In this document: in pieces, positions 9,001 to 37,723 of the stretch
Position numbering within the stretch: the first letter of the stretch is position 1
How the letters are laid out: each line of letters opens with the position of its first letter
From: Lentzea sp. NBRC 105346
GTDB taxonomy: Bacteria > Actinomycetota > Actinomycetes > Mycobacteriales > Pseudonocardiaceae
Length of the DNA stretch: 64,000 bases
Direction of reading: 5' to 3'
Assembly (NCBI RefSeq): GCF_030269605.1
Contig: NZ_BSTQ01000006.1
Span: 249,085 to 313,084 of the forward strand
Program-made: the position numbers and the translations under genes
Notes under the pieces: generated by a model
The model's input: only the letters and a program-made list of their open reading frames with translations
Told to the model about the DNA's origin: nothing
Database searches by the model: none

Positions 9001-12000
9001 GACCTCACAGGACATCGCGGACGCGCGTAAGAACGCGCCGATCAGCAGCACGGTGCGCGGCGAGGACGCCGGCGTGCTGTCCAACTCCGAGATCACGCCG
9101 GGCGGTATCAAGCTCAAGGCCTGGCGCGGCCCGATCGCCTACGACGTGCGGACGCTGGACGTCAACGGCGTCCCGGTGAAGGACCTGACCGTCAAGGTGT
9201 TCCTCGACGGCAAGGCCGGCGACGTCCAGGGGATCCAGGACCGCACCCGCGCCGGCGTCGAGGAGTTGTTCAACCAGGGCAACCGGATGCCCGGCGGCGC
9301 GCAGCTGCACGTCACCGTCGAGTTCACCGACAACAAGGCCGACGCGCACGGCGCCATCAAGATCACCGAGCCCGGTGGGCGGGCGAACCAGCTCAACTGG
9401 CCGTCCGACACCGACTCCAGGCGCCTGGCGCACGAGGTCGGGCACTTCCTGGGCCTGCACGACGAGTACTTCGAGACCGGCAAGGTCAAGCCGATCTTCC
9501 AGCACCAGGACGGCAAGGGTCGCGTCGTCAACGACAACGCGCCCATGACCGCCGGCATCGACGCACCGGACGCGTCGCTGAAGCCACGCAACCTGTGGCT
9601 GATCGAGAACCGCATGAAGGCGCTGGAGTCGTTCAACATCGCGCCCGCGCCGGTGGCGATCGACCCGAACGCGGTGCCGCCCAACACGTTCCTCGACGAC
9701 GTGAACATCCCGACGGTGTCCGACGGGTTCGCCGCCGAGGTGCACAACGCCGTGGAGGCACCGAAGATCGACACCGAGGTGCCGAAGGTCGCGGACACGT
9801 TCGTCGAGGATCTGTTCGACGACCTGGACGCGCAGGTCGACACGGCACCGCGCCCGCCGCGCCTGCTCGAGGGCGAGTGGTCGTCGCCGCGGCCGATCAG
9901 CGGACCGCTGACGCCGCAACGGTTGCAGGACGAGTTCGGCATGCCGCAGGTGAACCAGCAGCGGTTCCAGAAGCTCGCGGACCGGTTCAACCTCGTCTAC
10001 GACGTGCGGCCGACGAACCCGGACTCCGTGCGGTGGCTGGAGGAGGGCGCGGTCCCGAAGCCGAAGGACATCAAGGCCAAGACGATCAGCAGTCTCGACG
10101 TCCACCTCGGCGCCTCGCCGGACACCATCGGCCTGGTGGGCTACTTCGATCCTCGGCAACCCGACTACGACTCGCTGGATCCGGACGTCCGGGAACGCGT
10201 GCGCCAGCGTTACGAGAACCGCAAGCGGGAGTTCGCGGAGCTGGCCGAGGAGTTCGAGTCGCTGGAGGCGCAGGGCCGGTACCGCATCGAGAACGGCATC
10301 GTGCAGGCCAACACGCCCAACGGGTTCAGGCACATCACCGGCGACCACGACGTCTACCACATCCGCCGCCCCGACGACGGCAGCGCGCTGGAGGTCGACG
10401 ACTACGACCTCGACGTGTGGCTGCTGACCAAGCGCAACATCGGTGTGCAGCACGGCGCGCACATGTATTGGGAGCCGCAGGGCGCGTTCCAGGAGAAGAT
10501 CTTCAACGACATCGTGACGCGCCACCAGCAGTCGGCGCCGGACGCGGAGCCGCTGATCAGGTTCAGCCCCGGTCAGCCGCCGGCGCTGGTGTTCGCCGAC
10601 CCGCCGCCGGTGCACACCGAGTCGCCAGTGGTGACCGGACTGCGCCGCGACGGCGGAGCCGAGGGCGCCGTGCTCGCCGACCTCGACCTGCCGCACATCG
10701 AGTCGCTGATGGTGCACGCGCAGACGTTCGTCGACCAGTTCAGCCCGAACCCCGCGGCGGCCACGCCGGCGGCGGTCGCGCACGTGGCGTTCGAGCTACA
10801 CCACAACGGCGCGGTCGCCGCCGAGACCGCGGCCCGCGAGATCGGTGACGCGCTGCCCAACGCGCCCACACGGCACACGGCGCTGGTCGCCGGCCTGGAG
10901 GCGAACCCGGCGGGGCAGGCGGTGCTGGCCCTGGGGCTACCGCCCGCCGAGCTGCAGGACCTCATGGTCCACGCGGCGACCATCGCGAACGGTGTGGACG
11001 TCGCGCAGATCGCGTTGACGCTGCACAACAGCGGTCCGGTGACGGCGCGGGCGGTCGCGGACGCGCTCGCCACGCCGTCCGGCACGTTCGACCGCGACGC
11101 CGAGCTGCCGAACTCGCCGACCCGCCGCACCGGTGACCTGTACGCCGAGTCCACTGTGTCCGATGTGGACGCCGGTCACGTCATCACGTTCAACCCGGAG
11201 ACCGGTGTCGCCGAGGTGATGGACCCCGATGGTGCGGACCGGCAGTCCATGAACTCGTTCCTCGACGACATGATCTCCGCGTACGACGCGAACTCCGACT
11301 ACGCCGCCTCGATTCTCGACGGCTACACCGCGCCGGTCGCGACGTACGACTACCAGTTCTCCAGCGACGGCGTGGAGCCGCAGTTCCTGCGGCACGCGCG
11401 CGACGTCACGATGCAGACGCGGCCGGGGCAGTTCCCGTCGGTGCTGCCGGTCGTCCAGACCGGCGTCGGCGCCCAGCCGCCGCTGATGTTCGCCGTGGAC
11501 AACACGATCGCGCTGCCACTGGGTGACAACACCACGCAGTTCAAGGAGTTCTACGCGACGCCGGAGGTGATCGCGGACGCGCAGGCGCGGCTCAAGGAGG
11601 TCGGCAGCAAGCTGCGGCTGAAGGTGGTGCCCGGCAACACGGTGACGCACGACGGCACCACGCTGCTCCAGGTCACGCCGCACTTCAACAGCACGCCACC
11701 GGGCGTCTGCAGCGAGTTCTCACAGGGCGTGATCGGCGGCTCGCACAGCCTGGCGATCATGCGCCCGCCTGGCGGGACGCCGGTCGCCGGCAAGGTCTCC
11801 AACGGCGGGCCGCTGGTGTACAACGGCACGCACGAGATGGCGTTCGCACTGGCCCAGTTCGCGCAGAACCCGTTGGGGCCAAACAGCCTCACGCCCCAGC
11901 AGGTGAGCGCCGCCATGGCCGATACCGCCATCGACCCGCCGCTCGTGGGCCGCCAGTACGGCGCCGCGCTGGTGCCGGGCACCGACGCACGCGCCCGTCT

Positions 12001-13446: not shown

Positions 13447-14211
13447 TCAGACTGTGGTCAGCACCGAGGAGATCCGGGCGGCGATCCGCTCGTTGTCGGT
13501 GGGAGACAAGGAGAGCCACCCGTTCTCGTTGACCATCAGATACCGGCCGTTGTGCGTGTCGAACCACGTGATGAGCGCACCGGCGCGTTCGGTCCGGAAC
13601 TGCGACCAGCGAGAGACCCCGAACTGCCCACCGGCCACCCGCCCGGCGGCCAGCTCGGCGATCTGGGCGGCGTCCTGTTCGGACAGTCCGGCCTGTCGCA
13701 GCGCGTCACGTTCGTTCAGATCCGTGCCGCCCCAAGGATCGTCGTCATCCTCGGGCGGGTCCTCGTAGAGCCGCACCGCCGCGTCGAGCGTCTCCTGCCG
13801 CAACGACAACGCGATACCGGGACCGGCGGCACCGTCGGGCAACACCTCGACGATCGACCGGGCGAGGGCGGTGGGCCGGATCTCCAGCAGCCCGACCCGG
13901 TCGCTGTCGATCACGGCGAGCACCGCGCGGTCACCGGAGGAGACGGCCACCGCGCGCACCGGGCGTTCGAGGTGCGCGACGGCGTCGACCGCGATCTCGT
14001 GCTCGGCCAGCAGCCGGAGGAAGTCCGCGAGTCGTTGGTCGCCAACGAGATCAGGGCGTTCGTCCAGCAGTGTGCGGCGCATGCGCGCGCGTTCGTCCGC
14101 CGTGCCGCCGACGCTCGGCACGTCGAGCGGGTAGGGCAGCCGGCCGAGTTCGAGCTCGTGCCACAGCACGTCCAGCTCGGCGGGCGTCAGCAGGTACTCG
14201 GGAGTGATCAC
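13447..14211 (-). CDS. ESX secretion-associated protein, EspG family
   Basis: 254 residues from a GTG at 14211, the usual length of EspG proteins. The N-terminal pattern 'LTPAELDVLWHELELGRLPYPLDVP' and the C-terminal 'GWLSLSPTDNERIAARISS' match the EspG family. EspG proteins are cytoplasmic chaperones that bind the tip of PPE proteins and deliver PE-PPE pairs to the type VII secretion machine. The start codon overlaps the stop of the upstream PPE-like gene (GTGA), so the two are translated together, which fits a chaperone-substrate pair. It converges with the giant toxin gene across the IS3 remnant. No ESX core component (EccC, EccD, MycP) lies in the window. Confidence 0.85.
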   Translation of the reverse strand: MITPEYLLTPAELDVLWHELELGRLPYPLDVPSVGGTADERARMRRTLLDERPDLVGDQRLADFLRLLAEHEIAVDAVAHLERPVRAVAVSSGDRAVLAVIDSDRVGLLEIRPTALARSIVEVLPDGAAGPGIALSLRQETLDAAVRLYEDPPEDDDDPWGGTDLNERDALRQAGLSEQDAAQIAELAAGRVAGGQFGVSRWSQFRTERAGALITWFDTHNGRYLMVNENGWLSLSPTDNERIAARISSVLTTV

Positions 14212-15566
14212 GACGGGTCCGCCTTCTTCTTCTTGGCACCGCCGATGACGGGCGGCGGAAGGTCCGCGCCGGGCACCTCGAAGAGGTTGCCGCCGATGAT
14301 GTAGCCGGGCGAACGCCGTTCCTTGTCCTCGTCACCGCGACCGCCGTGCGCGCCACCCATCGGGGCGCCGCCCATGGGAGCGCCGCCACCCGCTGCCGCT
14401 GCCGCCGCGGCACCACCGGCGGGCATCACCGGACCGCGACCGGGCTGCATCACGCCGGTCGAACCACCCGGAGCCGTCTGACCACCGCCGGGACCACCGG
14501 GAACCGGCCCGAAGCCGCCACCGAACCCGGCCCGGCCGCCACCGCCCGCACCGCCACCACCAGGCATGCCCGGCCGCATGTTCTGCGGAGGAACGCCCTG
14601 CGGCGCCTTGTTCATCGGCGGCTGGCCGGACTTGGCCGCGGCGGGCGGGTACATGCCCGGCTGCTGCTGGTAGTTGCCCGAGTAAGGGTTCTGGTACGCG
14701 GGCTGCTTGGGCGGCGTGTACGTGCCGGACGGCGTCACCGTGGACGCGGCCGCCGCCGCGGTCGTGCTGTCCGGCCGGTAATACGGCTGCTCCGGCGCCT
14801 GGTACCCGCCCGGCGCGGAGGCAGCAGGTGCCGCGGGCGGGGCGTAGGACGCCGCGGTGGTGGCGGACTGCTGCTGGTACTGGGGCGGGGGAGCGGCGGC
14901 ACCGCCGGCCGGCTGCGCGGTCGCGGGCGGTGCGGCGGTGCCGAGCGTCGGGCCCTCGGTGCTGCGCAGCATCATCGGCTGCGGCGGCGCTTCTTCCTTG
15001 CCCGTCACCGGGTTGAACGGCGCGGTGAACACCGGCGTGGACTCGTCGATCGTCCGCGACGCCTGCTCCATTGTGGACATCACGGTGACGGCCTGGTCGT
15101 GCGCGGCGCGCGCCTGTTCGTTGGCGGCCTGCACGTCCGCGGCCGAGGCGCTGAACGCGGCGAGCCCGGTCCCGCTCATCGTCGCGGCCGCCTGGGCCCA
15201 GTCGAACTCCAGGGGCTCGGGCATGTTGGCCCGCGCGGTCTCCATGACGCGGCTCTGCTCGGCGACCCGGTTGCCCAGCTCGACGGCCGTCCGCGCGGTC
15301 TCGGTCACCCACTCCGCGAGCTTCTTCAACGCCAGCCGCGCACCGTCCGCGGCCTCACCGGTCCAGCCGGTCTCGGTCGCTTCGACCTGCTTGGTGATGT
15401 GCTGCGCGCACTCGGTCAGCTCGGACCCGAACTGGCCCCACTCGGAGCCGATCTGGCCGGTCTGGCCGGGGTCGTTGTTGTTGTGCACGGAGTCGTACAG
15501 CTCGCGGTGCGAGCGGGACGCCCAGTTCTGGGTGTCCTTGAGCACGAGGAAGTTCTCGGTGGCCAT
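14208..15566 (-). CDS. PPE-like type VII secretion substrate with long Pro/Gly-rich tail
   Basis: 452 residues. Residues 1-190 are helical, with a WxG turn (GWTGEAADGARLALKKLAEW) between long helices, as in PPE and WXG100 proteins. The rest is Pro/Gln/Tyr then Gly/Ala/Met low complexity, ending in a conserved-looking 'GYIIGGNLFEVPG' segment and a Lys-rich end. I did not see a strict PPE tripeptide at the N-terminus, so PPE-like is the safe call. The gene lies between a PE-like gene upstream (22 bp gap) and an EspG chaperone downstream (overlapping). The product is probably exported as a heterodimer with the PE-like protein and acts at the cell surface. Start ATG at 15566; no strong ribosome binding site is evident. 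Confidence 0.75.
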   Translation of the reverse strand: MATENFLVLKDTQNWASRSHRELYDSVHNNNDPGQTGQIGSEWGQFGSELTECAQHITKQVEATETGWTGEAADGARLALKKLAEWVTETARTAVELGNRVAEQSRVMETARANMPEPLEFDWAQAAATMSGTGLAAFSASAADVQAANEQARAAHDQAVTVMSTMEQASRTIDESTPVFTAPFNPVTGKEEAPPQPMMLRSTEGPTLGTAAPPATAQPAGGAAAPPPQYQQQSATTAASYAPPAAPAASAPGGYQAPEQPYYRPDSTTAAAAASTVTPSGTYTPPKQPAYQNPYSGNYQQQPGMYPPAAAKSGQPPMNKAPQGVPPQNMRPGMPGGGGAGGGGRAGFGGGFGPVPGGPGGGQTAPGGSTGVMQPGRGPVMPAGGAAAAAAAGGGAPMGGAPMGGAHGGRGDEDKERRSPGYIIGGNLFEVPGADLPPPVIGGAKKKKADPS

Positions 15567-26318: not shown

Positions 26319-26367
26319 CGGTTTGTGGCACCCTCGAAATCGGTTCATCCACAGTGCGGGGTGTTTC

Positions 26368-28572
26368 GTGGGGAGATGCGTAACGTGCGGTCGCGACCTG
26401 TCCGGACGGGGGCGCTACTGCTCGAACGCGTGTCGGCAGCGCGCCTACCGGCAACGGGAAAAGCATCCGAAACCAGTCGGCCTGGACCGGTTCGTCGGGC
26501 GGGTGGCGGAGCTCGCCGAGCTGGCGGCCGCGGTGCGCACGTCTCGGCTGGTGTCGCTCGTCGGAACGGCCGGCGCTGGTAAAACCCGGCTGGCCATGGA
26601 GTTCGCGGGCCGGTACGAGCACGCGCAGGTGGTCGAGCTCGCCTCGGTGACACGGGTCGCGGACGCGGTCGCGGCGGCGCTGGGCGTCTCGGCGTGGCAC
26701 GAGGTGGCCGAGCAGGCGTTGCTGGTGCTCGACAACTGCGAACACGTGCTGGACGACTGCAGGAACCTCGTGCCGCTGCTGCACACCGAGTGCCCTGGCC
26801 TGCGGGTGCTCGTCACCAGTCGCGAGGCGTTGCACCTGCCCGGCGAGGTGGTGCTGCCGGTGTACGGGTTGGGCACGGACGCGGTGGAGCTGTTCGCCGA
26901 CCGGGCCCGGCGGGTCACGCCGGAGTTCAAGCTGACCGACGAGACGCTCGTGCGGGTCACCGAGGTGTGCGAGCGGCTGGACGGGTTGCCGCTCGCGGTC
27001 GAACTGGCCGCGCGGCTGGTGCGGCCGTTGCCGCTGGAGGAGATCGTCGCGCGGCTCGACGAACCCTTCTCCGTGCTGGTGAGCGGATGGCGGTCCGCGC
27101 CGGGACGGCATCGGGACCTGCGGGCGGCGATCGGCTGGAGCCACGACCTGCTCACGCCCGAGGAACAGGCCGTGTTCCGGCGGCTGTCGGTGCTGGCCGG
27201 CGGGTTCGACCTCGACGCGGCCAGGGCGGTCGCGGCCGGCTCGCACCCGAGACCCGATGCGGTGGTGCGGAACCTGGAGCGCAAGTCGCTGGTCACGCGG
27301 CACGGAGCCGACCGGTTCCGGATGCTCGAGTCGATCCGGCACTTCGCCCACGAGCGACTGACCACCAGCGGCGAGGAAACCGTGGTGCGGCAACGGATGG
27401 TGGCGTGGCTGGTGGGCCTGGTCGGCGACGTCCGGCGCGCGGGCAGTCTCACCTGGCAGCGGATGCTCCTCGAGCACGACAACCTGGTGCACGCCATCGA
27501 CCACCTGATGCCGGGCGACGAGCGGCGGTTGCTGCTGGCCGGGGCGTTGGCGGCGGCTCGGATCAACTACGGCTACGCCGAGGACACGCGCCGGCTGCTG
27601 GTGCAGGAGCTCGAACACGACCATCCGGACTCGCCGAGCCGGGTCCTCGCGGTACGTGAGGCGGCCAGGATCGCACAGATGCTCGGGGACGCCGACGCTG
27701 CGAAGGAGTTGCTGCGCAAGGCGATCGAACGAGCACGCGCTTCGGGCCGGGACGAGGATCTGACCCCGTTGCTGCGCACGGCCGGGTATCTCGCGGTCAT
27801 GCGCGGCGACTACGCCGACGCGATCCGGATCGACCGCGAGCGTGCGGAGGTCGCGTGCGTGCTCGGTGACGCCAGGGAGCACGCACACGCGCTCAACGGG
27901 CTGGCGTGGGCGTTGCTCGCGCACGGCGACTGGGCGCAGGCCGCCCGGCTGGTCGAGCTCGCGAGAAGCGTCCCGGCGGAGGGGGAGGATTCGAGCTCCA
28001 CGGCCCACACCGCCGCCGTGATCGCGCTGGAACGCGGCGATCTGGCGGCCGCGCACGATCTGCTCACGGAGGCCCTGTCGGTCAACCGGGACAGCATGAT
28101 GCTCAGCCGCTGGCGGCTGGAGGGCGTCGCCATGCTCGCCCTGCGCCGCAAGCAACCCGAGCGCGCGCTCCGGCTGCTCACGGCCGTGGGGCACCTCTGC
28201 GACCAGCGGGGGATCGTCGCGGACCCGTGGTGGCGGGGCCGGGTGCGGGAGGCGGAGAGCGCGGCGGTGGCCGCCGTGCCCGCCGCGCTCGCCGAGTCGA
28301 TCGCCGAGTGGGCCCAGGAGGTCGAGCTGGCCGACGTCGTCGGCTACGCGCTGGGTACGGAGAACCCGCGAGCCGTGGACGAGCTGAGCGAGCCCGAGGT
28401 GGAGGTGCTTCGCCTGCTCGCGCGCGGCCGCACGAGCCGGGAGATCGCCGCAGGTCTGGGCCTGTCCGAGCGCACGGTCGAGAGCCGGGTCCGGAGTATC
28501 CGGACGAGGCTCGGAATCGAGTCCCGGTCTCAACTGGTCGCGTGGGCCGCGAAGACCGCAGAGCTTACGTAA
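26368..28572 (+). CDS. LuxR-family ATPase regulator with N-terminal Cys zinc motif
   Basis: 734 residues from GTG 26368. A TTG at 26323 in the same frame would add 15 residues but has no better support. Residues 2-30 form a small zinc-binding module (CVTCGRDLSGRGRYCSNAC, then basic 'RQRAYRQR'). A STAND-type ATPase follows with Walker A 'GTAGAGKTRLAMEF' and Walker B 'LLVLDNCEHVLDDC', then a TPR-like helical part, and finally a LuxR helix-turn-helix at the C-terminus ('LSEPEVEVLRLLARGRTSREI ... LSERTVESRVRSI'). Such proteins are ATP-dependent activators of secondary metabolism. It sits 113 bp upstream of the RiPP precursor on the same strand, so it is the likely pathway activator, perhaps binding the palindromes at 28628 and 28656. 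Confidence 0.85.
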   Translation: MGRCVTCGRDLSGRGRYCSNACRQRAYRQREKHPKPVGLDRFVGRVAELAELAAAVRTSRLVSLVGTAGAGKTRLAMEFAGRYEHAQVVELASVTRVADAVAAALGVSAWHEVAEQALLVLDNCEHVLDDCRNLVPLLHTECPGLRVLVTSREALHLPGEVVLPVYGLGTDAVELFADRARRVTPEFKLTDETLVRVTEVCERLDGLPLAVELAARLVRPLPLEEIVARLDEPFSVLVSGWRSAPGRHRDLRAAIGWSHDLLTPEEQAVFRRLSVLAGGFDLDAARAVAAGSHPRPDAVVRNLERKSLVTRHGADRFRMLESIRHFAHERLTTSGEETVVRQRMVAWLVGLVGDVRRAGSLTWQRMLLEHDNLVHAIDHLMPGDERRLLLAGALAAARINYGYAEDTRRLLVQELEHDHPDSPSRVLAVREAARIAQMLGDADAAKELLRKAIERARASGRDEDLTPLLRTAGYLAVMRGDYADAIRIDRERAEVACVLGDAREHAHALNGLAWALLAHGDWAQAARLVELARSVPAEGEDSSSTAHTAAVIALERGDLAAAHDLLTEALSVNRDSMMLSRWRLEGVAMLALRRKQPERALRLLTAVGHLCDQRGIVADPWWRGRVREAESAAVAAVPAALAESIAEWAQEVELADVVGYALGTENPRAVDELSEPEVEVLRLLARGRTSREIAAGLGLSERTVESRVRSIRTRLGIESRSQLVAWAAKTAELT

Positions 28573-28611: not shown

Positions 28612-28640
28612 TTGACGCCTCGATGCGGCGCTGCTGAAAT
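28612..28640 (+). promoter_or_regulatory. Promoter of the RiPP operon
   Basis: TTGACG (28612-28617) and TGAAAT (28635-28640) are separated by 17 bp, a good sigma-70 (HrdB-type) promoter. It lies 46 bp before the precursor start, after the regulator stop. Confidence 0.6.
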
Positions 28641-28669
28641 CGTTTGCAGCGCGCTGTTCGAATTTGAAC
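28628..28669. promoter_or_regulatory. Two inverted repeats at the RiPP promoter
   Basis: GCGCTGC (28628-28634) and GCAGCGC (28646-28652) form an inverted repeat that brackets the -10 box. Next to it GTTCGAATTTGAAC (28656-28669) is a 14-bp palindrome with one central mismatch pair. Both are plausible regulator binding sites; the first could also form a hairpin in the leader mRNA. Confidence 0.45.
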
Positions 28670-28685
28670 GACATCGGAGGATGAA

Positions 28686-28835
28686 ATGAATCGCGAGTCC
28701 CTGGATCTCAACGACCTTGACGTGTTCGACCTCACGGACACCGACGGACTGGAGATCGAGTCCCTCACGGCCGGCCACGGCACCGAACTGACGGCGTCGA
28801 GCTACCACAAGACCAGCTGCAGCACGAGCCGCTGA
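28686..28835 (+). CDS. Thiopeptide-like RiPP precursor peptide
   Basis: 49 residues from ATG 28686 with GGAGG five bases upstream. The leader (to about residue 37) is acidic and Leu/Asp-patterned, 'LDLNDLDVFDLTDTDGLEIE', ending in 'GHGTELTAS', as in thiopeptide precursors, where the core starts with Ser after a '(G/T)AS' motif. The core is SYHKTSCSTSR, or with one more Ser in front: Ser at positions 1 and 10, a single Cys, five other Ser/Thr-type sites, Tyr and His near the start and Arg last. It is directly upstream of the dehydratase and azole genes. Likely processing is thiazole formation at Cys45 and dehydration or oxazole formation at Ser/Thr. Known thiopeptides are much richer in Cys, though lactazole also has an aromatic residue at position 2. 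Confidence 0.8.
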   Translation: MNRESLDLNDLDVFDLTDTDGLEIESLTAGHGTELTASSYHKTSCSTSR

Positions 28836-28840
28836 TCAAC

Positions 28841-28877
28841 GGTGGTGCCGCCCTGCCAGCCGTGGGGCGGCACCACC
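28841..28877 (+). terminator. 13-bp stem-loop between precursor and enzyme genes
   Basis: GGTGGTGCCGCCC (28841-28853) pairs perfectly with GGGCGGCACCACC (28865-28877) around an 11-base loop, five bases after the precursor stop. It has no T tract. It probably acts as a partial terminator or as a 3' stabiliser of a short precursor mRNA, giving more precursor than enzyme. Confidence 0.75.
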
Positions 28878-28898
28878 CCCGCCATGGGGGAGAGTGCG

Positions 28899-31496
28899 AT
28901 GTCTTCAGCTGACTCCTGGCGCGTGCGGTCCGGGCCCGTGGTGCGCGTGGCCGGTCTGCCGGTGTCCGCGGTGCACGGTCTGCGGCGCGCGGGATCGATT
29001 CGACTGGCCCAGCGGATTATTCGCGAGAAATCGTGGCTCACCGGACGTGGTGCCATTCTCGCGGACGCTTTGTTCGACATCATCGGGTCCACCTCGCAGG
29101 CGCGTCCTGAGCTCGTGGGACTGCGGCGCGCGTTGCACGGCTCGAAGACGCCGCCACCTCGGGTGTGGAACGACTCGGTCGCAGAGGTGCTGGGCGAACC
29201 GTTGCGCGGGCAGGTGTGCGAGTGGATCGACCGCCTGGCCGCGGCCGCGAACGACGAGACGCGGCTCGCCGACCTGCTCGTCCTCGAACGCGACTCCGAG
29301 CTCACGGCGCTGCGCTGGACGCTCGCCGATCCCCGGCTGCGGCGCGGTCTCGCGCTGTCCGCCCCCACGCTGCTGGACGAGGCGCACCGGTGGCTGGCCG
29401 ATCCCGGACGCCGGCCGAAACCGCAGAAGCTGTTGCGGCTGGCCAAGTACGTCTCCCGCGCCGCCGCGAAGACCAGCCCTTACAGCACGTTCATGACCAC
29501 CGGCATCGGCGAATGGGCCCGGCGTGGTCCCGCGCTGGCGTTCGCCGGCCCCGGCGAGCCGGAGTGTGTGCTCGAGCTCGACGGCGCCTATCTCGACGCC
29601 GTCAAGGGTGCCCTCGTGACCTGTCCGGAGCTCGCCGACGCGGTGCGCGTGCGGGTCAACCCGAGCGTCCACGAAGCGGATGAGCGGCTGCGGTTCCTCG
29701 GCGCGCCCCCGGCCGAGCCGATCACCGGCCTGCTCGCCACCAAGGCCGTGCGGGAGTGCCTGCGCATCGCCGGGCGGGAGGGCATGACGCTCGCCGCGCT
29801 GCGCGCCGGGCTGGCGCTGGCCTGCGACGAGTCGATCCAGGTCGCGCGCCGGTTCGTCGATCGCCTCGTCACCGCCGGAGTGCTCGAGCTCTTCGTGCCG
29901 GTCGCGGACTTCTCGCTCGACTGGTGGGGCGACCTGCGCGACTGGCTGGACGCACGTTCGCAGCCGGAGACCGCCAAGCTCGTCGGCCAGCTGCACGACG
30001 AGCTGCGCCGCCCGGTGCCGGTCGCCGACATCACCGGCCACCGCGAGCGGCTGGCCGCCGTGCACAGCGCGGTCGACGAGCTCACCACCCACCTCGACGT
30101 CGCGGTCACGCCGCTCGGGGACGCGGTGCACGAGACCTCGGTCGTCCGGCACCGGCCCGCCACGCTGTCGCTGGCCCAATGGCGTCTCGCGCTGGACGAT
30201 CTCGACGTGCTGCGCCGGTTCCTGGCGATCTTCGACCGGGCCGTGCCGCTGCAGCTCGCGCTGGGCACCTACTGCCGGGAACGCTTCGGCGCCGGCAGCT
30301 CGGTGCCGTTCCTCGAGGTCTACCGGCGGGTTCAGGAGGACCTGGCTGCTGATGACCCTGCCGGGACCGCCGCCGCGGCGGACCTGCGGGCGCTGCTGAG
30401 CTCGGAGGCACCGTGGTTCGAGGGACCCGCCGAGTTCCGGCTGCCCCGGTTGCGGCTGCTGGAGAACCTGCGGGCCCAGGCCCGGCGGATCGCGCTGCCC
30501 GAGCCCGACCCGGACGGGCGGGTGCGGGTGAACCCGGCCGCGCTGGCGGAGCTCGCGGCCACCTGGCCGGAGTGGATCATCCCGCCGGACTCGGTCGGCT
30601 GCTTCGTTCAGTCCCTTGTGGACGGTGGTGGTGACGTGCGACTCGTGCTGAGCACCATGATGAGCGGGTACGGCCACGGCATCGCCCGCGTGCGGCATCT
30701 CATCGCGCAGGCAGGCGAGGCGATCGTCGACGAGGACGGCTGGGAACCGCCGCCGGGACACGCGCTCGCCGAGTTGAGCGGCCTGTTCGGCTCGACGCTG
30801 AACGCGCGGCTGCCCAGCGCCGGGCTCGAGGTGGACTACCCGTTCACGGTCGGCGACCGGCCGTCGCCGCAGCGCATCCCGTTGGCGGAGTTGACGGTCC
30901 GGCACGACGTGGAACGCGATCTCGTGTCGCTGTCCGCGCTGGACACGACGATCACACCGTTGCACCTGGGCAACCAGGCGGGCTTCGCCCTGCCACCGGC
31001 GGCACGCTTCCTCACCAAGGCGTTCGGCCCGCGCGCCCTGCTGACCCACCCGTCGTTGCGGATGCTGACCGGGTCCGGCAGCGTCGAGCTACCCGAGGAG
31101 CCGGTGCACCGGCCGCGCATCGAGGTCGGGCGGGTCGTGCTGGGCCGGGAGAAGTGGCTGATCCCCGCGGGGCTCGTGCCCGCGCGGCACAAGGGCGAAC
31201 CGGACGCCGGCCACCTGCTGCGGTTGCTGGACTGGTTGCGCGCCAACGGCATTCCGGACCGGTGCTACGTGCGCGCATGGCACGGCGGCAGCCATGCCGG
31301 CTTCTCCAAGTCGCGCAAACCGATCTACATCGACTTCTCCAGCAGCCTGCTGCTCGGCCTGTTCGAGCGGGAGACCGCGTCGGCCGCGTGCGTCGTCTTC
31401 GAGGAGGCGCTGCCGGAGTTGAGCGATGCGCGTGGTCCCGATCCGGACGACCCGAGCGTCGTGGAGTTCCTGATCGAACTGGCGGGTGCGCGATGA
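28899..31496 (+). CDS. LanB-type glutamyl-tRNA-dependent dehydratase, glutamylation protein
   Basis: 865 residues from ATG 28899, preceded by GGGGGAG at proper spacing (ATG 28884 in the same frame is an alternative). It is a stand-alone N-terminal lantibiotic-dehydratase unit, as in the split LanB proteins of thiopeptide and goadsporin pathways. Family features include 'SPYSTFMTTGIG' near residue 195, the 'SGYGHGIARV' segment, and the end pattern 'RVVLGREKWLIP ... WLRANGIPDRCYVRAW ... KPIYIDFSS'. The enzyme would use glutamyl-tRNA to esterify Ser and Thr of the core with glutamate, before elimination by the next protein to dehydroalanine or dehydrobutyrine. Its stop overlaps the next start (ATGA). 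Confidence 0.92.
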   Translation: MSSADSWRVRSGPVVRVAGLPVSAVHGLRRAGSIRLAQRIIREKSWLTGRGAILADALFDIIGSTSQARPELVGLRRALHGSKTPPPRVWNDSVAEVLGEPLRGQVCEWIDRLAAAANDETRLADLLVLERDSELTALRWTLADPRLRRGLALSAPTLLDEAHRWLADPGRRPKPQKLLRLAKYVSRAAAKTSPYSTFMTTGIGEWARRGPALAFAGPGEPECVLELDGAYLDAVKGALVTCPELADAVRVRVNPSVHEADERLRFLGAPPAEPITGLLATKAVRECLRIAGREGMTLAALRAGLALACDESIQVARRFVDRLVTAGVLELFVPVADFSLDWWGDLRDWLDARSQPETAKLVGQLHDELRRPVPVADITGHRERLAAVHSAVDELTTHLDVAVTPLGDAVHETSVVRHRPATLSLAQWRLALDDLDVLRRFLAIFDRAVPLQLALGTYCRERFGAGSSVPFLEVYRRVQEDLAADDPAGTAAAADLRALLSSEAPWFEGPAEFRLPRLRLLENLRAQARRIALPEPDPDGRVRVNPAALAELAATWPEWIIPPDSVGCFVQSLVDGGGDVRLVLSTMMSGYGHGIARVRHLIAQAGEAIVDEDGWEPPPGHALAELSGLFGSTLNARLPSAGLEVDYPFTVGDRPSPQRIPLAELTVRHDVERDLVSLSALDTTITPLHLGNQAGFALPPAARFLTKAFGPRALLTHPSLRMLTGSGSVELPEEPVHRPRIEVGRVVLGREKWLIPAGLVPARHKGEPDAGHLLRLLDWLRANGIPDRCYVRAWHGGSHAGFSKSRKPIYIDFSSSLLLGLFERETASAACVVFEEALPELSDARGPDPDDPSVVEFLIELAGAR

Positions 31497-32443
31497 CGTC
31501 GTGGGTGAGTGCGCATCTGTTCTACCAGGACAATCTGGACGGGCTGACGGTGGACCTCGCCGCTCCGGTCGCGGACGGGCTGGTCGAGGAGGGACTGGCG
31601 TCGGCGTGGTTCTTCCTGCGCTACTGGGAGCGCGGCAACCACCTGCGGCTGCGGGTGCTGCCCACGAGCGGTGCCGTCGCACGGGTGCGGGTGCGGATCG
31701 AGGAGCACGCCGAGAAGTACTTCGCCGCGCATCCGAGCGAACAACGGATGCGGCCCGACGAGTACGAGCTGATGGCCGCCGAGTTCGCCCGGGGTGAGCG
31801 ACTGGACGACTACGCGAAGTCGTTGGCGCCCAACAACTCTCTTGCCTTCATCACGTATCGGCCCGAGCACGATCGGTACGGCCGGGGTGCGTCGCTGCAG
31901 GCCGTGGAACGGCATTTCGCCGAGTCCAGCCAGATCGCGCTGCGGGTGTTGCGCGGCCGGCCCACACATGAACAGCGTGACACCGCGGCGTTCGCGCTGA
32001 TCCTCTCGACCTGGCTGTGCGGCGAACCCGGTGTCGACCGGCTAGCGCGGCTGGCCTGCGACGTACTGGACGCGGTGGCGCGCCGGGCCGACGCGGTGCT
32101 CGGGCCCGACGAGCTCAACGAGCGCTTCCACCGGCAGGCGCCGCGGTTGCTGACGCTGGGCACCCGGATCCTCCGGCATCCCGGCGCGGGCCCGCTGGCG
32201 CAGTGGCGGGCCTCGGTGCGCCGGCTGCGCGACCGGCTGGCGGAGCTCACCCTGTGCGGAGCGTTCGTGCCGCCGCAGACCGGGTTCACCGGCGCGTCCA
32301 GGCGGCTCTACGACGTGCTGCCGGTGCTGGACATCTGTGCGCATCTCGTGTGCAACCGCCTCGGACTGTCCATCACCGAGGAGATCTACCTGCGTTATCT
32401 GGCCGCGCGGACGGTCATCGAGCTGAACGAGGAGGGTTTATGA
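31493..32443 (+). CDS. Split LanB elimination protein (thiopeptide-type biosynthesis domain)
   Basis: 316 residues. The N-terminal signature 'SWVSAHLFYQDNLDGL' and 'WFFLRYWERGNHLRLRVL' is that of the thiopeptide-type bacteriocin biosynthesis domain (TIGR03891), and the C-terminal 'ICAHLVCNRLGLSITEEIYL' closes the domain. It should remove glutamate from glutamylated Ser/Thr to give dehydroamino acids, acting with the preceding protein in the cytoplasm. Both ends overlap neighbours (ATGA at 31493 and 32440). The last 50 bp or so recur, in modified form, in the two 152-bp units that follow, so its 3' end was copied in a tandem duplication. Confidence 0.9.
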   Translation: MTSWVSAHLFYQDNLDGLTVDLAAPVADGLVEEGLASAWFFLRYWERGNHLRLRVLPTSGAVARVRVRIEEHAEKYFAAHPSEQRMRPDEYELMAAEFARGERLDDYAKSLAPNNSLAFITYRPEHDRYGRGASLQAVERHFAESSQIALRVLRGRPTHEQRDTAAFALILSTWLCGEPGVDRLARLACDVLDAVARRADAVLGPDELNERFHRQAPRLLTLGTRILRHPGAGPLAQWRASVRRLRDRLAELTLCGAFVPPQTGFTGASRRLYDVLPVLDICAHLVCNRLGLSITEEIYLRYLAARTVIELNEEGL

Positions 32444-32595
32444 GCCCCGGACGGCTGCTGGCCGATTTCCACGCCACCACGGCGAAACTGGCGGCCGGTC
32501 TCGGCGGGCGCGGCGCCGCGTTCACGGGCGCGTCCTGGCGTCTCGACGTGCTGCGTTACCTGGCTGCCCGGCCGGTCATCGAGGAGGGTTCGTGA
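32440..32595 (+). CDS. 51-residue mini-gene, duplication unit 1
   Basis: ATG 32440 overlaps the stop of the elimination gene, and its own stop overlaps the next GTG. The first 30 or so residues ('GRLLADFHATTAKLAAGL') copy the N-terminus of the 201-residue protein at 32744. The last ('LRYLAARPVIEEGS') copy the C-terminus of the elimination protein, followed by the same GAGGAGGG ribosome binding site. The unit is therefore a tandem copy of the operon junction. The frame is intact, and most differences from unit 2 are synonymous, so the peptide may be made. Function unknown. Confidence 0.5.
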   Translation: MSPGRLLADFHATTAKLAAGLGGRGAAFTGASWRLDVLRYLAARPVIEEGS

Positions 32596-32743
32596 ATCCC
32601 GGACGGTTGCTGGTCGACTTTCACGCCACCACCGCGGGTCTCGCGGCCGGCCTCGGCGGGCGCGGCGCCGCGTTCACGGGTGCGTCCTGGCGCCTCGACG
32701 TGCTGCGTTACCTGGCTGCCCGGCCGGTCATCGAGGAGGGTTC
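32440..32743 (+). repeat. Two tandem 152-bp copies of an operon junction
   Basis: Units 32440-32591 and 32592-32743 are about 90 percent identical. Each joins a copy of the 5' end of the gene at 32744 to a copy of the 3' end of the gene at 31493. Both lack six bases (CTGAAC at 32422) present in the original 3' end. Since 152 is not a multiple of three, only the built-in stop and restart keeps each unit in frame. Confidence 0.9.
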
Positions 32744-32747
32744 GTGA
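32592..32747 (+). CDS. 51-residue mini-gene, duplication unit 2
   Basis: GTG 32592 to TGA 32747, exactly 152 bp after unit 1 and with the same length. Compared with unit 1 I count eight synonymous codon changes and three amino-acid changes (Ser/Asn, Ala/Val, Lys/Gly) plus ATG/GTG at the start. Translation is coupled on both sides (GTGA overlaps). It may be a functional small peptide or just a relay that keeps ribosomes moving into the downstream gene. No known domain. Confidence 0.5.
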   Translation: MNPGRLLVDFHATTAGLAAGLGGRGAAFTGASWRLDVLRYLAARPVIEEGS

Positions 32748-33349
32748 ATCCCGATCGGCTGCTGGCCGACTTCCACGCCACCACCGCGGGTCTCGCGGCC
32801 GACCTCCGCGGACCCAACGCCGCGTTCACGGTGATGATCGCGACCGCACACGGTCTCAGTGGCCTCGACGTGCTCCGGGGAGCCGTGTCGTTCCGTTCGC
32901 ACGCGGAGGCCGTGCTGCACACCGCGCGCCCGGAGGTCCGGGCGTCGTGGGACGCGCACTACGCGCGACACGCAGGGGCGCTCACCACGCGGGTCGAGGC
33001 GGTCGTCGCCGGCCGGGAACCGTTGGCGCACAGGTGGATCGAGCTGCTGCTGCCGTTGCGGCAACGGGCGCACCGGCTGGTCGCCACCGGCGAGCTGTCG
33101 TTGCCCGACATCGACGAGAACGCGTCGTGGAGTCCGTTCCACCTGGCCATGTTCGCGAACGAGCGGTGGCAGCGCACGGTCCGGCCGTCGGTGCGGTTCG
33201 CGGTCTTCCGGGTGATGTTGAACTACACCTACCTCTTCCTGGAGCGCATCGGAGTGACCGAGGCGCAACGGTTCCAGCTCTGCCACCTCGCCGCGAACGC
33301 GGTCGAGGAGGTCTATGGCGTGTCGGCACTGGAGTTGGTGAGCAGATGA
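32744..33349 (+). CDS. Short protein in the pyridine-synthase position of the cluster
   Basis: 201 residues from GTG 32744 (GAGGAGGG upstream). It is mostly helical, with 'FRVMLNYTYLFLERIGVTEAQRF' near the C-terminus, which resembles the closing 'H..hNRLGLs..eE' segment of thiopeptide elimination and pyridine-synthase proteins. The usual N-terminal strand part ('W...R') of those proteins is absent. In thiopeptide clusters this slot, after the glutamylation and elimination genes, encodes the [4+2] pyridine synthase of about 270-300 residues. It may be a trimmed pyridine synthase, a relative with a different job, or an accessory to elimination. Stop and start overlap with the SagB-type gene (ATGA). 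I cannot decide between these from sequence alone. Confidence 0.5.
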   Translation: MNPDRLLADFHATTAGLAADLRGPNAAFTVMIATAHGLSGLDVLRGAVSFRSHAEAVLHTARPEVRASWDAHYARHAGALTTRVEAVVAGREPLAHRWIELLLPLRQRAHRLVATGELSLPDIDENASWSPFHLAMFANERWQRTVRPSVRFAVFRVMLNYTYLFLERIGVTEAQRFQLCHLAANAVEEVYGVSALELVSR

Positions 33350-34614
33350 GAGAGCTCGTGGTGTTGCGGTCCGGTGTGCACGGCGTCGTCACCCCGCGGG
33401 GGCGGCGGCTGCTGGCGGCGTGGCCGCACGCGCAGGACATCGGGCCGCGCACCGCGGCTCAGGACGCCGCGCTGCGCCGGCTCGCCTCCGGCCCGCTCGA
33501 TCCGCACGACCTGGACGATGAGCTGCTGGACCGGTTGCGTTCCGGTGGCTGGCTCGCCACCACCGTTGTCGACAACGGGCATCCGATCTACACGATCATG
33601 CCACTGACCCCGCCGCCCCCGCGGCCGTTCGACGACGGCGAGCTCGTGCTGTCCCGGTTCGCGGTCATGCGGCAGGGCGACTGGGGCCTGGTCATCGAGT
33701 CGCCGCGGTCCTGGTGCGAGATCCGGGTTCACGACGCATCGGTCGTCGCCGCGCTGCTGGAGTCTACTGTGGACGGCAGAATGCGGCTGGACCTCGCCTG
33801 GGCGGGTGTGCTCGTGCCCGCGGGCAGTGAGGACGACGAGCTGCGGCTGAGTCAGTGGGGACCGCACGAGCTGTGGTTCCACCACCGCAGCCGGGGAGTT
33901 CCCGGCGACCGCACCGGTGCGACCTACTGGGCGCACGGCAGGTTCGAGCCACTGCCGGTCCGGCCGCCCGAGTATCCCGGACCGGTCGTGGAGCTGGCCA
34001 AGCCCGGCAGCGATCGTAAGGACCCGTCGCTCACCGAGGTGCTCGAGACCCGCCGGTCGATCCGCGTGCACGACGACGACCACCCCATCACGGCCGGGGA
34101 ACTGGGCGAGTTGCTGTATCGCTGTGGCCGCACCGATTCCGTGCATCACGACGGCTACCAGGAACTGGCCGCGCGGCCGTACCCGAACGGCGGGGCCGCA
34201 GGCGAGCTCGAGCTGTACCCGGTGATCCGGCACGCCGCCGGCGTCGCGCCGGGCATGTACCACTACGACTCGCACGACCATGTGCTGCGGCTGGTCCGGT
34301 CGTCGACAGATCCGGCGGTGCGGCGGTTGCTCATCGCGGCGGCGCGCGGGACCGGCGCGGCCGAGCCGCAGGTGCTGATCGTGGTCGCGGCGCGGTTCGG
34401 GCGGCTGATGTGGAAGTACGAGGCCATCCCGTACTCGGCGATCCTCAAGCACGTCGGGGTGCTGTTCCAGACCATGTACCTGGTGGCGACGGCGATGGGG
34501 CTCGCGCCGTGCGCGGTCGGGGCGGGGGACTCGCAGGCGTTCGCCGAGGCGACCGGGCGGGATCCGTTGGTGGAGAACAGCGTCGGCGAGTTCATGCTGG
34601 GGAGGCCCGCGTGA
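33346..34614 (+). CDS. SagB-type FMN dehydrogenase (azoline oxidase)
   Basis: 422 residues. Residues 1-220 form an N-terminal extension typical of SagB-type proteins. The nitroreductase fold follows from about residue 233 ('TRRSIRVHDDDHPIT', 'LGELLYRCGR', 'YPNGGAAGELELYPVI', and 'AILKHVGVLFQTMYLVATAMGL' in two overlapping helices). FMN-dependent enzymes of this family oxidise thiazolines and oxazolines to thiazoles and oxazoles. It is linked by start-stop overlaps to both neighbours, the last being the ocin-ThiF-like partner. Its presence shows that the product carries aromatic azoles rather than only azolines. Confidence 0.9.
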   Translation: MRELVVLRSGVHGVVTPRGRRLLAAWPHAQDIGPRTAAQDAALRRLASGPLDPHDLDDELLDRLRSGGWLATTVVDNGHPIYTIMPLTPPPPRPFDDGELVLSRFAVMRQGDWGLVIESPRSWCEIRVHDASVVAALLESTVDGRMRLDLAWAGVLVPAGSEDDELRLSQWGPHELWFHHRSRGVPGDRTGATYWAHGRFEPLPVRPPEYPGPVVELAKPGSDRKDPSLTEVLETRRSIRVHDDDHPITAGELGELLYRCGRTDSVHHDGYQELAARPYPNGGAAGELELYPVIRHAAGVAPGMYHYDSHDHVLRLVRSSTDPAVRRLLIAAARGTGAAEPQVLIVVAARFGRLMWKYEAIPYSAILKHVGVLFQTMYLVATAMGLAPCAVGAGDSQAFAEATGRDPLVENSVGEFMLGRPA

Positions 34615-36107
34615 GCGGCCTGTTGTTGCGGCCGGACTGGAACGTCGTCCCGTCGCTGCGCCCGTGGGTGGAGCGCCTCGCACCGCACCTCGACGGCACG
34701 CGTTCCCTGACCGACCTGACCGCGGACCTGGAGTCACCGCAACGGGAGCACGTCGAACGCCTGTTGTCGGCGTTGCTCCGCCAGGGCGTGGTGCGTGAGA
34801 TCACCGACCTGCCGCACGGCCTGTCGGCGGACGAGCTCGCCGAGTTCGCGCCCGAGATCGAGCTGGCCGGGTCGCCGCACGCCTTCGAGAAGTGGCGCCG
34901 CGGCCGGACTTTCGTGGTGGGGGAGGGACGGCTGGCGACGGCGGTCGCGCGCGCCCTGCGGCAGTCCGGGGTTCGGCACGTCGACATCGTCGGCCTGATC
35001 AGCCTCGTACGTGGCGCCGATCTCGTGCTCCACGTGGCGGACCGGCCGATGGTCGATCGCGCCCACCGGCTGGACCGCGCGCACGAGGGAGTGTGGCACG
35101 CGATGATCACCGGTGGCGCGGCATGGCTGGCGGACTGCGCGGATCCCTGGACGCGCCTGGGGGACCAGGCGCCGCGAACGGTGAGCGCGGTCGCGGTCAC
35201 CGTGGCCGCGAACCAGTTCGTGCAGCACATCTTCCGCGTTGTCACGGGTGCGGTTCCGTTGTCGCGCAAGGCGATCCGGGTGGACCTGGACGGGCTGTGG
35301 ACGACGGAACACGGCTTCCTGCGGTCCGGCGCGCCACGGGACCGGATCGAGCAGCTGACCGACGAGGAGTTCTCGCGGCGGATCGCGCCGCTGGTGGACG
35401 AGTGGCTCGGCGTGCTCCACGAGCTGGACGAGCACGACTTCACGCAGTCGCCGTTGCACGTGACGCGCGCCCGAGTCGGGGACGAGCACGTCGTCGGCAG
35501 CGCGCTCGACTTCGCACGGGCGCGGTACGACGCGGCGTTGCGCGGGCTGGAGCTGTACGCCGCACGGCGGGAGGGCGTGCCCGCGTTCGCCGGTTACAGC
35601 TGGAAGGAGTCCGTGACGGCCGGGCTCGTCGCGCGATGTCGGACGCTGACGGTCGCCGAGCCGCCGGGACTCTTCCCGGCGGTCGATCCGGCCACGCTGC
35701 CGGAGGCCGGGCCGTACGTCACGCTGCTGAAGGCGACCGGCCTGCCGCTCGAGGTGTACGACGTGACCGGCTCGCTCGGCGTGCCGACGTTCGCGTGCTG
35801 CCTCGACGGCCGGACCGTCGCCTACGGCTGCGGGGTGACGGCGGCCGAGGCGTTGCGGGACGGGTTGCACGACACCTTGTTGTCTTATCAGGCAACGAAG
35901 AACGGCGAGCCCTACGCTCCACCGCCGGTGCCCGACCTGCCGCCGGCGGCGCGGGGCCCGGTGCAGCCGGTTCGCACAAGAGCGGTGCACGACGCGCGGA
36001 CGTTGATAAAGGCCTTGGAAGGCCAGGGACATCACGTGTCGGTCGAGGCTTTGGACGCGGGGCTGCACGAGGTGATGCCGTTCCTGGTGACCGTGGTGAT
36101 CACGTGA
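34611..36107 (+). CDS. Ocin-ThiF-like cyclodehydratase partner with leader-binding domain
   Basis: 498 residues from GTG 34611. The N-terminal 80 residues ('LRPWVERLAPHLDGTRSLTDL ... LLSALLRQGVV') have the winged-helix pattern of a RiPP recognition element, which binds the precursor leader. A degenerate ThiF/E1-like segment follows ('FVVGEGRLATAVARALRQSGV'), lacking the classical zinc Cys tetrad, then a C-terminal half that is YcaO-interacting in known homologues (TIGR03693-type). It presents the precursor to the YcaO enzyme encoded next. GTGA overlaps join it to both neighbours. Confidence 0.85.
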   Translation: MSGLLLRPDWNVVPSLRPWVERLAPHLDGTRSLTDLTADLESPQREHVERLLSALLRQGVVREITDLPHGLSADELAEFAPEIELAGSPHAFEKWRRGRTFVVGEGRLATAVARALRQSGVRHVDIVGLISLVRGADLVLHVADRPMVDRAHRLDRAHEGVWHAMITGGAAWLADCADPWTRLGDQAPRTVSAVAVTVAANQFVQHIFRVVTGAVPLSRKAIRVDLDGLWTTEHGFLRSGAPRDRIEQLTDEEFSRRIAPLVDEWLGVLHELDEHDFTQSPLHVTRARVGDEHVVGSALDFARARYDAALRGLELYAARREGVPAFAGYSWKESVTAGLVARCRTLTVAEPPGLFPAVDPATLPEAGPYVTLLKATGLPLEVYDVTGSLGVPTFACCLDGRTVAYGCGVTAAEALRDGLHDTLLSYQATKNGEPYAPPPVPDLPPAARGPVQPVRTRAVHDARTLIKALEGQGHHVSVEALDAGLHEVMPFLVTVVIT

Positions 36108-37723
36108 CCATGACGGCCGCCATCGAACGGTCGCTGGGCGGATACCGCGGGCTGCCCGTGCGGGAGGAACCCGGCCGGGTCGTCATCGGGCCGTCGACCT
36201 GCCCGGTGTGCTTCGAGCTGCGGCGTTCACTCGACCACCGGCCGCCGGTCGCACCGACCGCGCTGGCGTGCGACACCGTGGCGGCCCTGGTCGCCGACGA
36301 GATCGAGGCGCTCGAGCGCACGACGGACGCCGTGCTGTTCGTGGATCTGGCGTCGCTCCGGGTCACCCGCCACCGCTTCCTGCCCGAACCGCTGTGCCCG
36401 CGGTGCGGCAACCTGCCCGACGACGGGCCCGAGGTGCTTTCCCTGCGGTCCCGGCCGAAGCGGGCCCCCGACAACTACCGGGTCGGCACGCTGCCGGACG
36501 TCCTCGACACCTACTTCGACGCGGAGACCGGCATGATCCGCGTGCTGGAGCGGGCGACGCTGGGCGGCCTGGCCGTGACGAACGCCGTCCTGCCGACGCG
36601 CGACGGCGACATCGAGGTCGGGTGCGGGCAGACCCGCGACTACCGGTCCAGCGAGCGGACCGCCGTCCTGGAGGCCCTGGAGCGGTGGGGCGGCTTCCAG
36701 CCGGGCGGCAAGCGGACGTCGGTCCGGTCGAGCTACCGGGAGCTCGCCGGCCAGGCGCTCGACCCGCGGCAGCTGGGCACGCACGCGCCCGAGGACTACC
36801 TGCGGCCCGGTTTCCGGTACCGGCCGTTCGACGCCGACGAGGTGCTCCCCTGGGTGTGGGGCTACTCGTTCGGCCGGGCGGAGCCGATCCTCGTGCCCGA
36901 GTCCGTCGCGTACTACCGGACGGGCGGCCGGCTGGTCTACGAGTGCTCCAACGGGTGTGCGCTGGGCGGATGCCTGGAGGAGGCGATCCTGCACGGCATC
37001 CTGGAGGTCGCCGAGCGTGACGCGTTCCTCTACTCCTGGTACACCCGCACGCCGCCTTTTCGGGTCGACCTGGACAGCGCGCGGGACCGGTCCGTGCCGG
37101 TGCAGGCCGCCGCGATCGAGCTGGCGACGGGCTACCGGCTGTCGGTGTACGACACGACGACGGAGACCGGCGTGCCGTGCGCGTGGGCGATGGCCGTGAG
37201 CCCGTCCGACGCCTTCGACATCCCCAAGGTGGTGTGCGCCGGCGGTGCGCACCTCGACCTGGAACGAGCCGTCCTCAACGCGTTGGGCGAGGTCGGGCAC
37301 GTCACGGCGGTGCTGCGCGCGACCTTCCCGGCGTTGGCGGCCAAGGCACGGCTAATGATCGACGACCCGGACCTGGTGGTGGAACTGGAGGACCACACCA
37401 CGTTGTACGGCGCCCACGAGGCGTTCGACCGGTTCTCGTTCCTGGACTCCTCGCCGGTGCGTGCGTTCGGTTCTCCCGTGCCTGGCGCGGCGGATCTGCG
37501 CGACGACCTCCTGTTCCTGGTGGACAGGTACCTGTCCCGCGGTATGGACGTGATCGTGGTCGACCAGACCACGCCCGAGCACCGGATCTCCGGCCTGTCG
37601 TGCGTCAAGGTGATCATCCCCGGCACCGTGCCGATCACGTTCGGGCACGCCAATCGCCGTCTGCACGGCCTGCCGAGGCTGGCGGGGTTTTCGCTCAACC
37701 CGAATCCTCACCCGTTTCCGTGA
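36104..37723 (+). CDS. YcaO azoline-forming cyclodehydratase
   Basis: 539 residues from GTG 36104 (ATG 36110 is also possible). ATP/Mg-binding motifs of YcaO proteins are present: 'SSERTAVLEALERWGG' near residue 183 and 'CSNGCALGGCLEEAILHGIL' near 281, continuing with 'EVAERDAFL'. The C-terminus 'NPNPHPFP' carries the proline-rich end required by azoline-forming members. An N-terminal part has 'CPVCFEL' and 'CPRCGN', a possible zinc site often seen in this subfamily. It phosphorylates the backbone amide while Cys, Ser or Thr side chains cyclise to azolines, which the SagB-type enzyme then oxidises. Last gene of the RiPP operon; no terminator is evident in the 107 bp downstream. Confidence 0.95.
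   Translation: MTMTAAIERSLGGYRGLPVREEPGRVVIGPSTCPVCFELRRSLDHRPPVAPTALACDTVAALVADEIEALERTTDAVLFVDLASLRVTRHRFLPEPLCPRCGNLPDDGPEVLSLRSRPKRAPDNYRVGTLPDVLDTYFDAETGMIRVLERATLGGLAVTNAVLPTRDGDIEVGCGQTRDYRSSERTAVLEALERWGGFQPGGKRTSVRSSYRELAGQALDPRQLGTHAPEDYLRPGFRYRPFDADEVLPWVWGYSFGRAEPILVPESVAYYRTGGRLVYECSNGCALGGCLEEAILHGILEVAERDAFLYSWYTRTPPFRVDLDSARDRSVPVQAAAIELATGYRLSVYDTTTETGVPCAWAMAVSPSDAFDIPKVVCAGGAHLDLERAVLNALGEVGHVTAVLRATFPALAAKARLMIDDPDLVVELEDHTTLYGAHEAFDRFSFLDSSPVRAFGSPVPGAADLRDDLLFLVDRYLSRGMDVIVVDQTTPEHRISGLSCVKVIIPGTVPITFGHANRRLHGLPRLAGFSLNPNPHPFP

Follow-up and report, generated by a model that had tools for sequence, protein, structure and literature searches.

What would a thiopeptide-type operon make if its ring-closing enzyme were cut in half and its peptide held a single cysteine? 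The question is raised by a 64,000-nucleotide (nt) stretch of the Lentzea sp. NBRC 105346 genome (contig NZ_BSTQ01000006.1, positions 249,085 to 313,084), here called the window. Its genes A, B, C, m1, m2, D, E, F and G form one single-strand operon (28686-37723) and are coupled via 4-nt overlaps or short gaps. The gene list of an earlier note on this DNA, and the coupling it described, proved right. Gene content and descent place the operon with thiomuracin-type operons. Our tentative reading is a thiopeptide operon of the thiomuracin/GE37468 lineage that has been remodelled, is still maintained, and has a linear product. Because half of the ring-closing enzyme is combined with a much altered peptide, the product may differ from those of related operons.

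The product of gene D is the enzyme in question. It covers positions 135-353 of the 354 in the NF045556 pyridine synthase model and scores 196.5 bits, below the 325-bit equivalog cut-off. The helical C-terminal domain of the TbtD and PbtD synthases is present, and their catalytic tyrosine (TbtD Y319, PbtD Y293) is kept as Tyr163. The alpha/beta N-terminal domain is absent, and the frame now opens at residue ~135, immediately after C ends. A profile of the N-terminal half, built using 19 of the 36 relatives scored, gives -2.2 bits on the D frame versus 131.7-197.2 bits in 35 of the 36 relatives, whose D proteins keep that half; the exception is a relic, L015. The short third protein and the truncated enzyme in the pyridine-synthase slot, both named in the earlier note, are thus this one protein. 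D falls short of the full-length pyridine synthase by which thiopeptides are recognized, so the operon is not filed as that of a thiopeptide producer. The class also requires a glutamylation LanB with a separate elimination protein (PF04738, PF14028) and a YcaO with an azoline dehydrogenase, and these are present, the latter two over cut-off (TIGR03604, TIGR03605).

Three possible sources of the missing half were rejected. Only repeat copies lie between C and D. In the rest of the genome, the N-terminal half matched only C, part of a 1031-codon frame on contig 24 (E 2e-4) and one further place at E 0.7, and a second genome search returned C and the partial contig 24 match only. C itself is not a chimera that has taken over the synthase half, for its score of 48.7 bits lies among those of other C proteins (40.6-65.8).

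The peptide is altered as well. Precursor A scores 40.9 bits with NCBIfam NF033399 thiazolyl_GetA, the family of thiomuracin/GE37468 precursors (cut-off 29), and 14.3 bits with Pfam Thiopep_pre, below the cut-off of 23.5. It is the only NF033399 match above cut-off in the 9.4-Mb genome; a second precursor of this family was sought elsewhere in the genome, and the three other matches were weak (E 0.4-5.6). From alignment on TE(V/L)xA|S we infer a core of 12 or 11 residues, SSYHKTSCSTSR, which is short, rich in Ser/Thr, and holds a single Cys (Cys8), as the earlier note had it. Ser1 or Ser2 plus Ser7-Cys8 are present, yet there is only the one Cys. The leader was matched by tblastn in 11 of 11 homologous A-G operons, and the window core is shared by none of the ten relatives' precursors read (that of L091 is the unread one), so conservation of the precursor holds for the leader and fails for the core. 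The relatives' cores include SCNCFCYICCSCSPSA, SCNCVCGLCCSCSPSA, SCTTCVCVCSCCTS and long Gly/Ser/Cys cores, and by our own count each of the ten holds 5-8 Cys versus one in the window. A frameshift concealing a Cys-rich core was discounted, as no Cys appears when the core is read by eye in its other two frames.

Across the family, the precursor model matched 47 places at E <= 0.001, and 28 frames were read, including the window's. Three further frames (L126, L127 and L129) show a single Cys within the final 25 residues. L127 has four Cys in its core, and L129 is not a precursor. L126, with a thiopeptide-type leader, has the core SCTIGDAASGFLPEDWDWADA, which contains one Cys and several acidic residues; the family search gave no D match in its genome. 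A single-Cys core behind such a leader is thus rare but not unique.

Relatives of D were sought in 24 genus genomes, in 390 of the family, and in a named-genome scan. Matches at E <= 1e-10 occur in 24 of the 390 family genomes, the window's own included, and one of the 23 other genus genomes has a strong match. The named-genome scan added 11 D loci, the best 44% identical, and plasmid records hold three D relatives at 34-50% identity. The A-to-G order is found in nine (L048-L056) of the 14 family relatives (23 in total) that were examined with wide flanks. An order-wide SagB search (397 genomes) gave two more full operons, L090 and L091, among 13 loci examined; B, C and D were not seen at the other 11, several of which are short or cut by contig ends. 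The order A-B-C-D-E-F-G is common to 11 related loci. In FastTree phylogenies without an outgroup, each built on ten sequences that include four almost alike, the window groups with L048 and L050 (supports of 0.99 for B, 0.88 for D, 0.86 for E, 0.86 for F and 0.93 for G); the C tree leaves its placement unresolved. The cores of L048 and L050, SCNCFCYICCSCSPSA and SCNCVCGLCCSCSPSA, are what we take to be thiomuracin-like, in agreement with the name of the NF033399 family. Each of the 24 genus genomes has members of the sensor kinase and glycosidase families that flank the operon, but in the relatives compared the best matches of the two lie on different contigs, and no empty site was recovered.

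How such an operon would work can be proposed by analogy. In thiopeptide pathways YcaO and the dehydrogenase first form azoles, LanB and the elimination protein next form dehydroalanine (Dha), and [4+2] closure sheds the leader (PMC10676384, PMC9247985). In the window, F would bind the leader, G and E would convert Cys8 into a thiazole, and B and C would dehydrate several Ser/Thr. One Cys allows one thiazole, at position 8. With the helical half only, normal [4+2] closure and the accompanying leader release would probably be lost, a host protease would trim the linear peptide, and D would stay as a binding or scaffolding subunit. The resulting product, short and linear, would carry a single thiazole and several Dha or dehydrobutyrine residues. 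For the 12-residue core with one thiazole, the calculated [M+H]+ of the linear form is 1323.57, lowered by 18.01 for every dehydration.

A [4+2] step by the half synthase is doubtful. Nevertheless, D could still work as a cyclase, either by itself or together with a protein that provides the half it lacks, an explanation we judge unlikely. C is the candidate partner, as it carries a homologous alpha/beta half. Ser1 or Ser2 would be joined to Ser7 in a 17- or 14-atom pyridine macrocycle with one thiazole, and the leader would be released as an amide. By calculation the pyridine product would lie 35.04 below the linear form (1252.52 with two dehydrations, for instance), and the leader amide would have a mass of 4018.9. 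The retained Tyr163 is consistent with this, as are the positions conserved in 90% of 17 relatives, of which D keeps 17/17 in residues 61-201 and 9/11 in residues 1-60, and the lack of any leader peptidase seen in the operon. Thr6-Ser7-Cys8 resembles the azole-Dha-thiazole motif of lactazole, whose authors suggest that LazC may need only oxazole-Dha around the 4-pi component (PMC7210931). MroD makes rings of 14-17 atoms, as does LazC at the small end; pyritides naturally have rings of 14 and 17 atoms (PMC9247985, PMC7210931). However, oxazole formation at Thr6 is assumed, C resembles a synthase no more than its counterparts in the relatives do, and the N-terminal half is so widely kept. No synthase known to us functions in its absence. 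The more specific proposal of a naturally minimised cyclase, in which the helical half, by itself or docked onto the alpha/beta half of C, forms a 14- or 17-atom pyridine ring with a single thiazole, seems to us improbable. If true, it would show which half of the enzyme carries the chemistry, and its ring would be smaller than those of known thiopeptides, which have 26 or more atoms. We consider a linear product somewhat more likely than a small ring, given that 35 of the 36 relatives, the relic being the exception, have the domain that D lacks.

The two mini-genes of the earlier note proved to be a 152-nt tandem repeat. Each joins the D start to two stretches like C 32280-32312 and 32390-32422, with 82-88% identity. 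The fused C-end/D-start junction, at residue ~135 of D, is present in all three repeat copies, and because every copy carries it, the truncation of D is older than the duplication. In each copy the C end bears the GAGGAGGG ribosome-binding site before the next start. NCBIfam and Pfam scans of m1 gave no family match. The copies have diverged by about 10-22%, with synonymous divergence (pS) of 0.21 for m1-m2, 0.30 for m1-D and 0.17 for m2-D. About 5 of 14 changes between m1 and m2 are non-synonymous, a synonymous excess (binomial P 0.007), but these changes are few and clustered and may reflect copying from D; m2 and D show no synonymous excess (non-synonymous divergence 0.139, pS 0.173). The duplication most likely left the mini-genes as by-products, which repeat the D start and its ribosome-binding site. 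It is very improbable that misassembly or faulty sequencing produced the short D and the repeats. Short-read assemblies can fail at tandem repeats and this one has 67 contigs, but the locus lies inside a 437-kb contig and the D start is clean and coupled after m2. Nor are m1 and m2 one sequence assembled twice, because 11 of the 50 codons after the start differ.

The enzymes show signs of maintenance. No premature stop is found in the six enzyme open reading frames (ORFs). Simulated drift of eight ORFs, with a fixed substitution bias and no indels, gave a mean of 8.0 stops and no stop-free run in 1000 at 0.05 neutral substitutions per site, which is about half of the m1-m2 difference; at 0.02 the mean was 3.4 stops, and 4% of runs were stop-free. 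The actual ORFs contain none. In a leave-one-out test on seven of ten sequences (three near-identical ones were dropped), the invariant columns kept were 109/121 (0.90) in B, 49/53 (0.92) in C, 28/34 (0.82) in D, 101/112 (0.90) in E, 51/62 (0.82) in F and 139/153 (0.91) in G. The relatives keep 0.80-0.97 over all genes, and each window enzyme is within their range. Five of the six losses in D fall in residues 1-60. At 90% conservation in 17 of 25 relatives (8 similar ones were dropped), D keeps 26 of 28 positions, and because only two losses remain, we do not argue for extra decay close to the cut. Terminal branches are ordinary, that of D being 0.68 versus 0.54 and 0.60. The absence of stops, the ordinary column retention and branches, and the grouping with thiomuracin-core operons suggest that the operon enzymes have probably been under selection after D was cut. 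The product may be used, and D may still have a task.

The other explanation to weigh, which we consider unlikely, is a decaying thiopeptide cluster that first lost part of D and no longer makes anything useful. It would account for the domain missing from D, the few-Cys core, the mini-ORFs that look like duplication debris, the single strong D match among 23 other genus genomes, and the retention values of D and F at the low end of the relatives' range. Relics do exist, as the 71-residue D frame of L015 illustrates. Against decay, the six enzyme ORFs are free of stops despite the ~10-22% divergence of the repeat copies, and the D branch is not unusually long.

Several observations weigh against a maintained operon with a linear product. 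Under simulated drift D alone stays stop-free in 55% of runs at 0.05 substitutions per site and in 34% at 0.10, and its retention of 0.82 equals the lowest values of the relatives; F is also at or near the lowest relative. No close relative was found by which selection on the altered core, or on D since its truncation, could be demonstrated. The core retains the Ser1 ... Thr6-Ser7-Cys8 pattern, which would suit ring closure. A linear product would need a leader peptidase and an exporter. Neither was seen in the operon or next to it; the closest peptidase gene found, for an M36 metallopeptidase, lies 5.7 kb upstream.

Table 1. Genes of the operon and the adjacent regulator, with positions in the window.
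Feature	Coordinates	Strand	Evidence or description
A, precursor peptide	28686..28835	+	NF033399 match; leader ends ...SLTAGHGTELTA; predicted core SSYHKTSCSTSR
B, glutamyl-tRNA-dependent LanB glutamylation protein	28899..31496	+	PF04738 (Lant_dehydr_N) 106.7 bits
C, stand-alone glutamate-elimination protein	31493..32443	+	PF14028 (Lant_dehydr_C) 140 bits
m1, 51-residue chimeric mini-ORF	32440..32595	+	truncated D start + two C-end pieces, copied
m2, second mini-ORF copy	32592..32747	+	tandem-repeat comparison
D, half pyridine synthase, 201 residues, helical C-terminal domain only	32744..33349	+	NF045556 partial match
E, SagB-type azoline dehydrogenase	33346..34614	+	TIGR03605 150.9 bits, cut-off 78.4
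F, ocin-ThiF-like protein	34611..36107	+	TIGR03693 part of model, 48.5 bits, under cut-off 561.9
G, YcaO cyclodehydratase	36110..37723	+	TIGR03604 296.8, TIGR03882 76.1, PF02624 275.3 bits
LuxR-type regulator with ATPase-like and TPR regions	26323..28572	+	GerE 51.4 bits, TPR_12 38 bits

The assignments in Table 1 agree with the earlier note for the leader-type precursor, the glutamylation LanB, the SagB-type dehydrogenase and the azoline-type YcaO. Its "split elimination protein" is indeed an elimination protein, of the ordinary stand-alone type seen in related A-G operons and not a split one. The call of an ocin-ThiF-like protein also holds, with a partial match under cut-off; F is homologous to the F of related operons and is presumably the leader-binding partner of the cyclodehydratase. 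G has an alternative in-frame GTG start at 36104. In the LuxR-type protein the AAA_16 match falls under cut-off. Its position just upstream of A makes it a possible pathway regulator.

Among 20 neighbouring ORFs (13447-56241; Pfam, E 1e-5, leaving out four listed ORFs of this interval and the rest of the window) there is no goadsporin-type peptidase ABC transporter or GNAT acetyltransferase, and no tailoring gene was found among those scanned, as had been noted earlier. Besides G, the genome has two further YcaO genes, on contig 33 (11775-12755) and contig 7 (152201-153133). Window positions 155-13096 form a single open frame of 4313 codons. EspG-family and PPE-family genes stand side by side at 13447-15566, presumably as in ESX secretion loci.

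Some related loci are unusual in their own right. The A-G operons L053-L056, all of one genus, have cores that run into long Gly/Trp/His tails (e.g. SSSSHCSGSCSCGGGSCSCGDGGWDGGWGWGGGHGGGHGHW), an unusual core type common to four genomes. L049 combines a complete thiopeptide operon with a long core, SCSAPGGGCSGCSGTTWDCCCSCGTD, from which a large ring would be expected. Six loci from Streptacidiphilus, Catenulispora and Streptomyces (L005-L010) have the near-identical core (F/Y)CCAPPPNCCNCSCS with thiopeptide genes. The pyridine synthase relic of L015 (9968-10168) is a 71-residue frame 82% identical to a gene of another Herbidospora; no other cluster enzyme gene was seen in 20 kb, and the locus appears to be a decayed thiopeptide cluster.

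Compared with known systems, the operon is closest to those of thiomuracin, GE2270 and GE37468 (TbtA-G, Pbt), with which it shares the NF033399 precursor family, the leader motif ESLTAGHG, and gene set and order. It differs in its half synthase, the one Cys in a 12-residue core, and the mini-genes. Like the pyritides (MroA-D), it has a short Cys-poor core and a possible 14-17-atom ring (PMC9247985), whereas the pyritide cluster, as there described, is without azole genes and has MroD; the window has YcaO, F, SagB and the halved synthase. Lactazole (LazA-F) has a similarly compact gene set and a Ser-Ser-Cys closure motif comparable to Thr6-Ser7-Cys8 (PMC7210931), but uses LazC and an elimination/dehydrogenase fusion, LazF. 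Goadsporin (GodA-H), a linear product with azoles and Dha, is likewise made by a split LanB and azole enzymes (PMC5303826). Its putative peptidase-transporter GodB and acetyltransferase GodH are not seen in the window, and the available part of that paper makes no mention of a synthase remnant in the cluster. Goadsporin is a poorer parent than thiomuracin/GE37468; of the thiopeptide and goadsporin-like alternatives in the earlier note, a thiopeptide-type operon for a ribosomally synthesized and post-translationally modified peptide (RiPP) is the one that stands. Dehydrazoles such as carnazolamide also combine azoles and dehydroamino acids in one peptide (PMC10676384), but rely on a dehydratase of LanM/LanKC type and have a long NH-like leader. 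In the open-access literature, judged by titles and abstract openings, no halved or split pyridine synthase was found described, and no account of this cluster with a known product was found there either. Pyridine synthases and glutamate-elimination proteins share a two-part fold whose parts have usually been probed by point mutation. Here one whole part has been cut away at the domain boundary, with the remaining pathway kept, so the operon could show either that half an enzyme suffices for [4+2] closure or how a thiopeptide pathway turns into a linear azole/dehydroamino-acid one.

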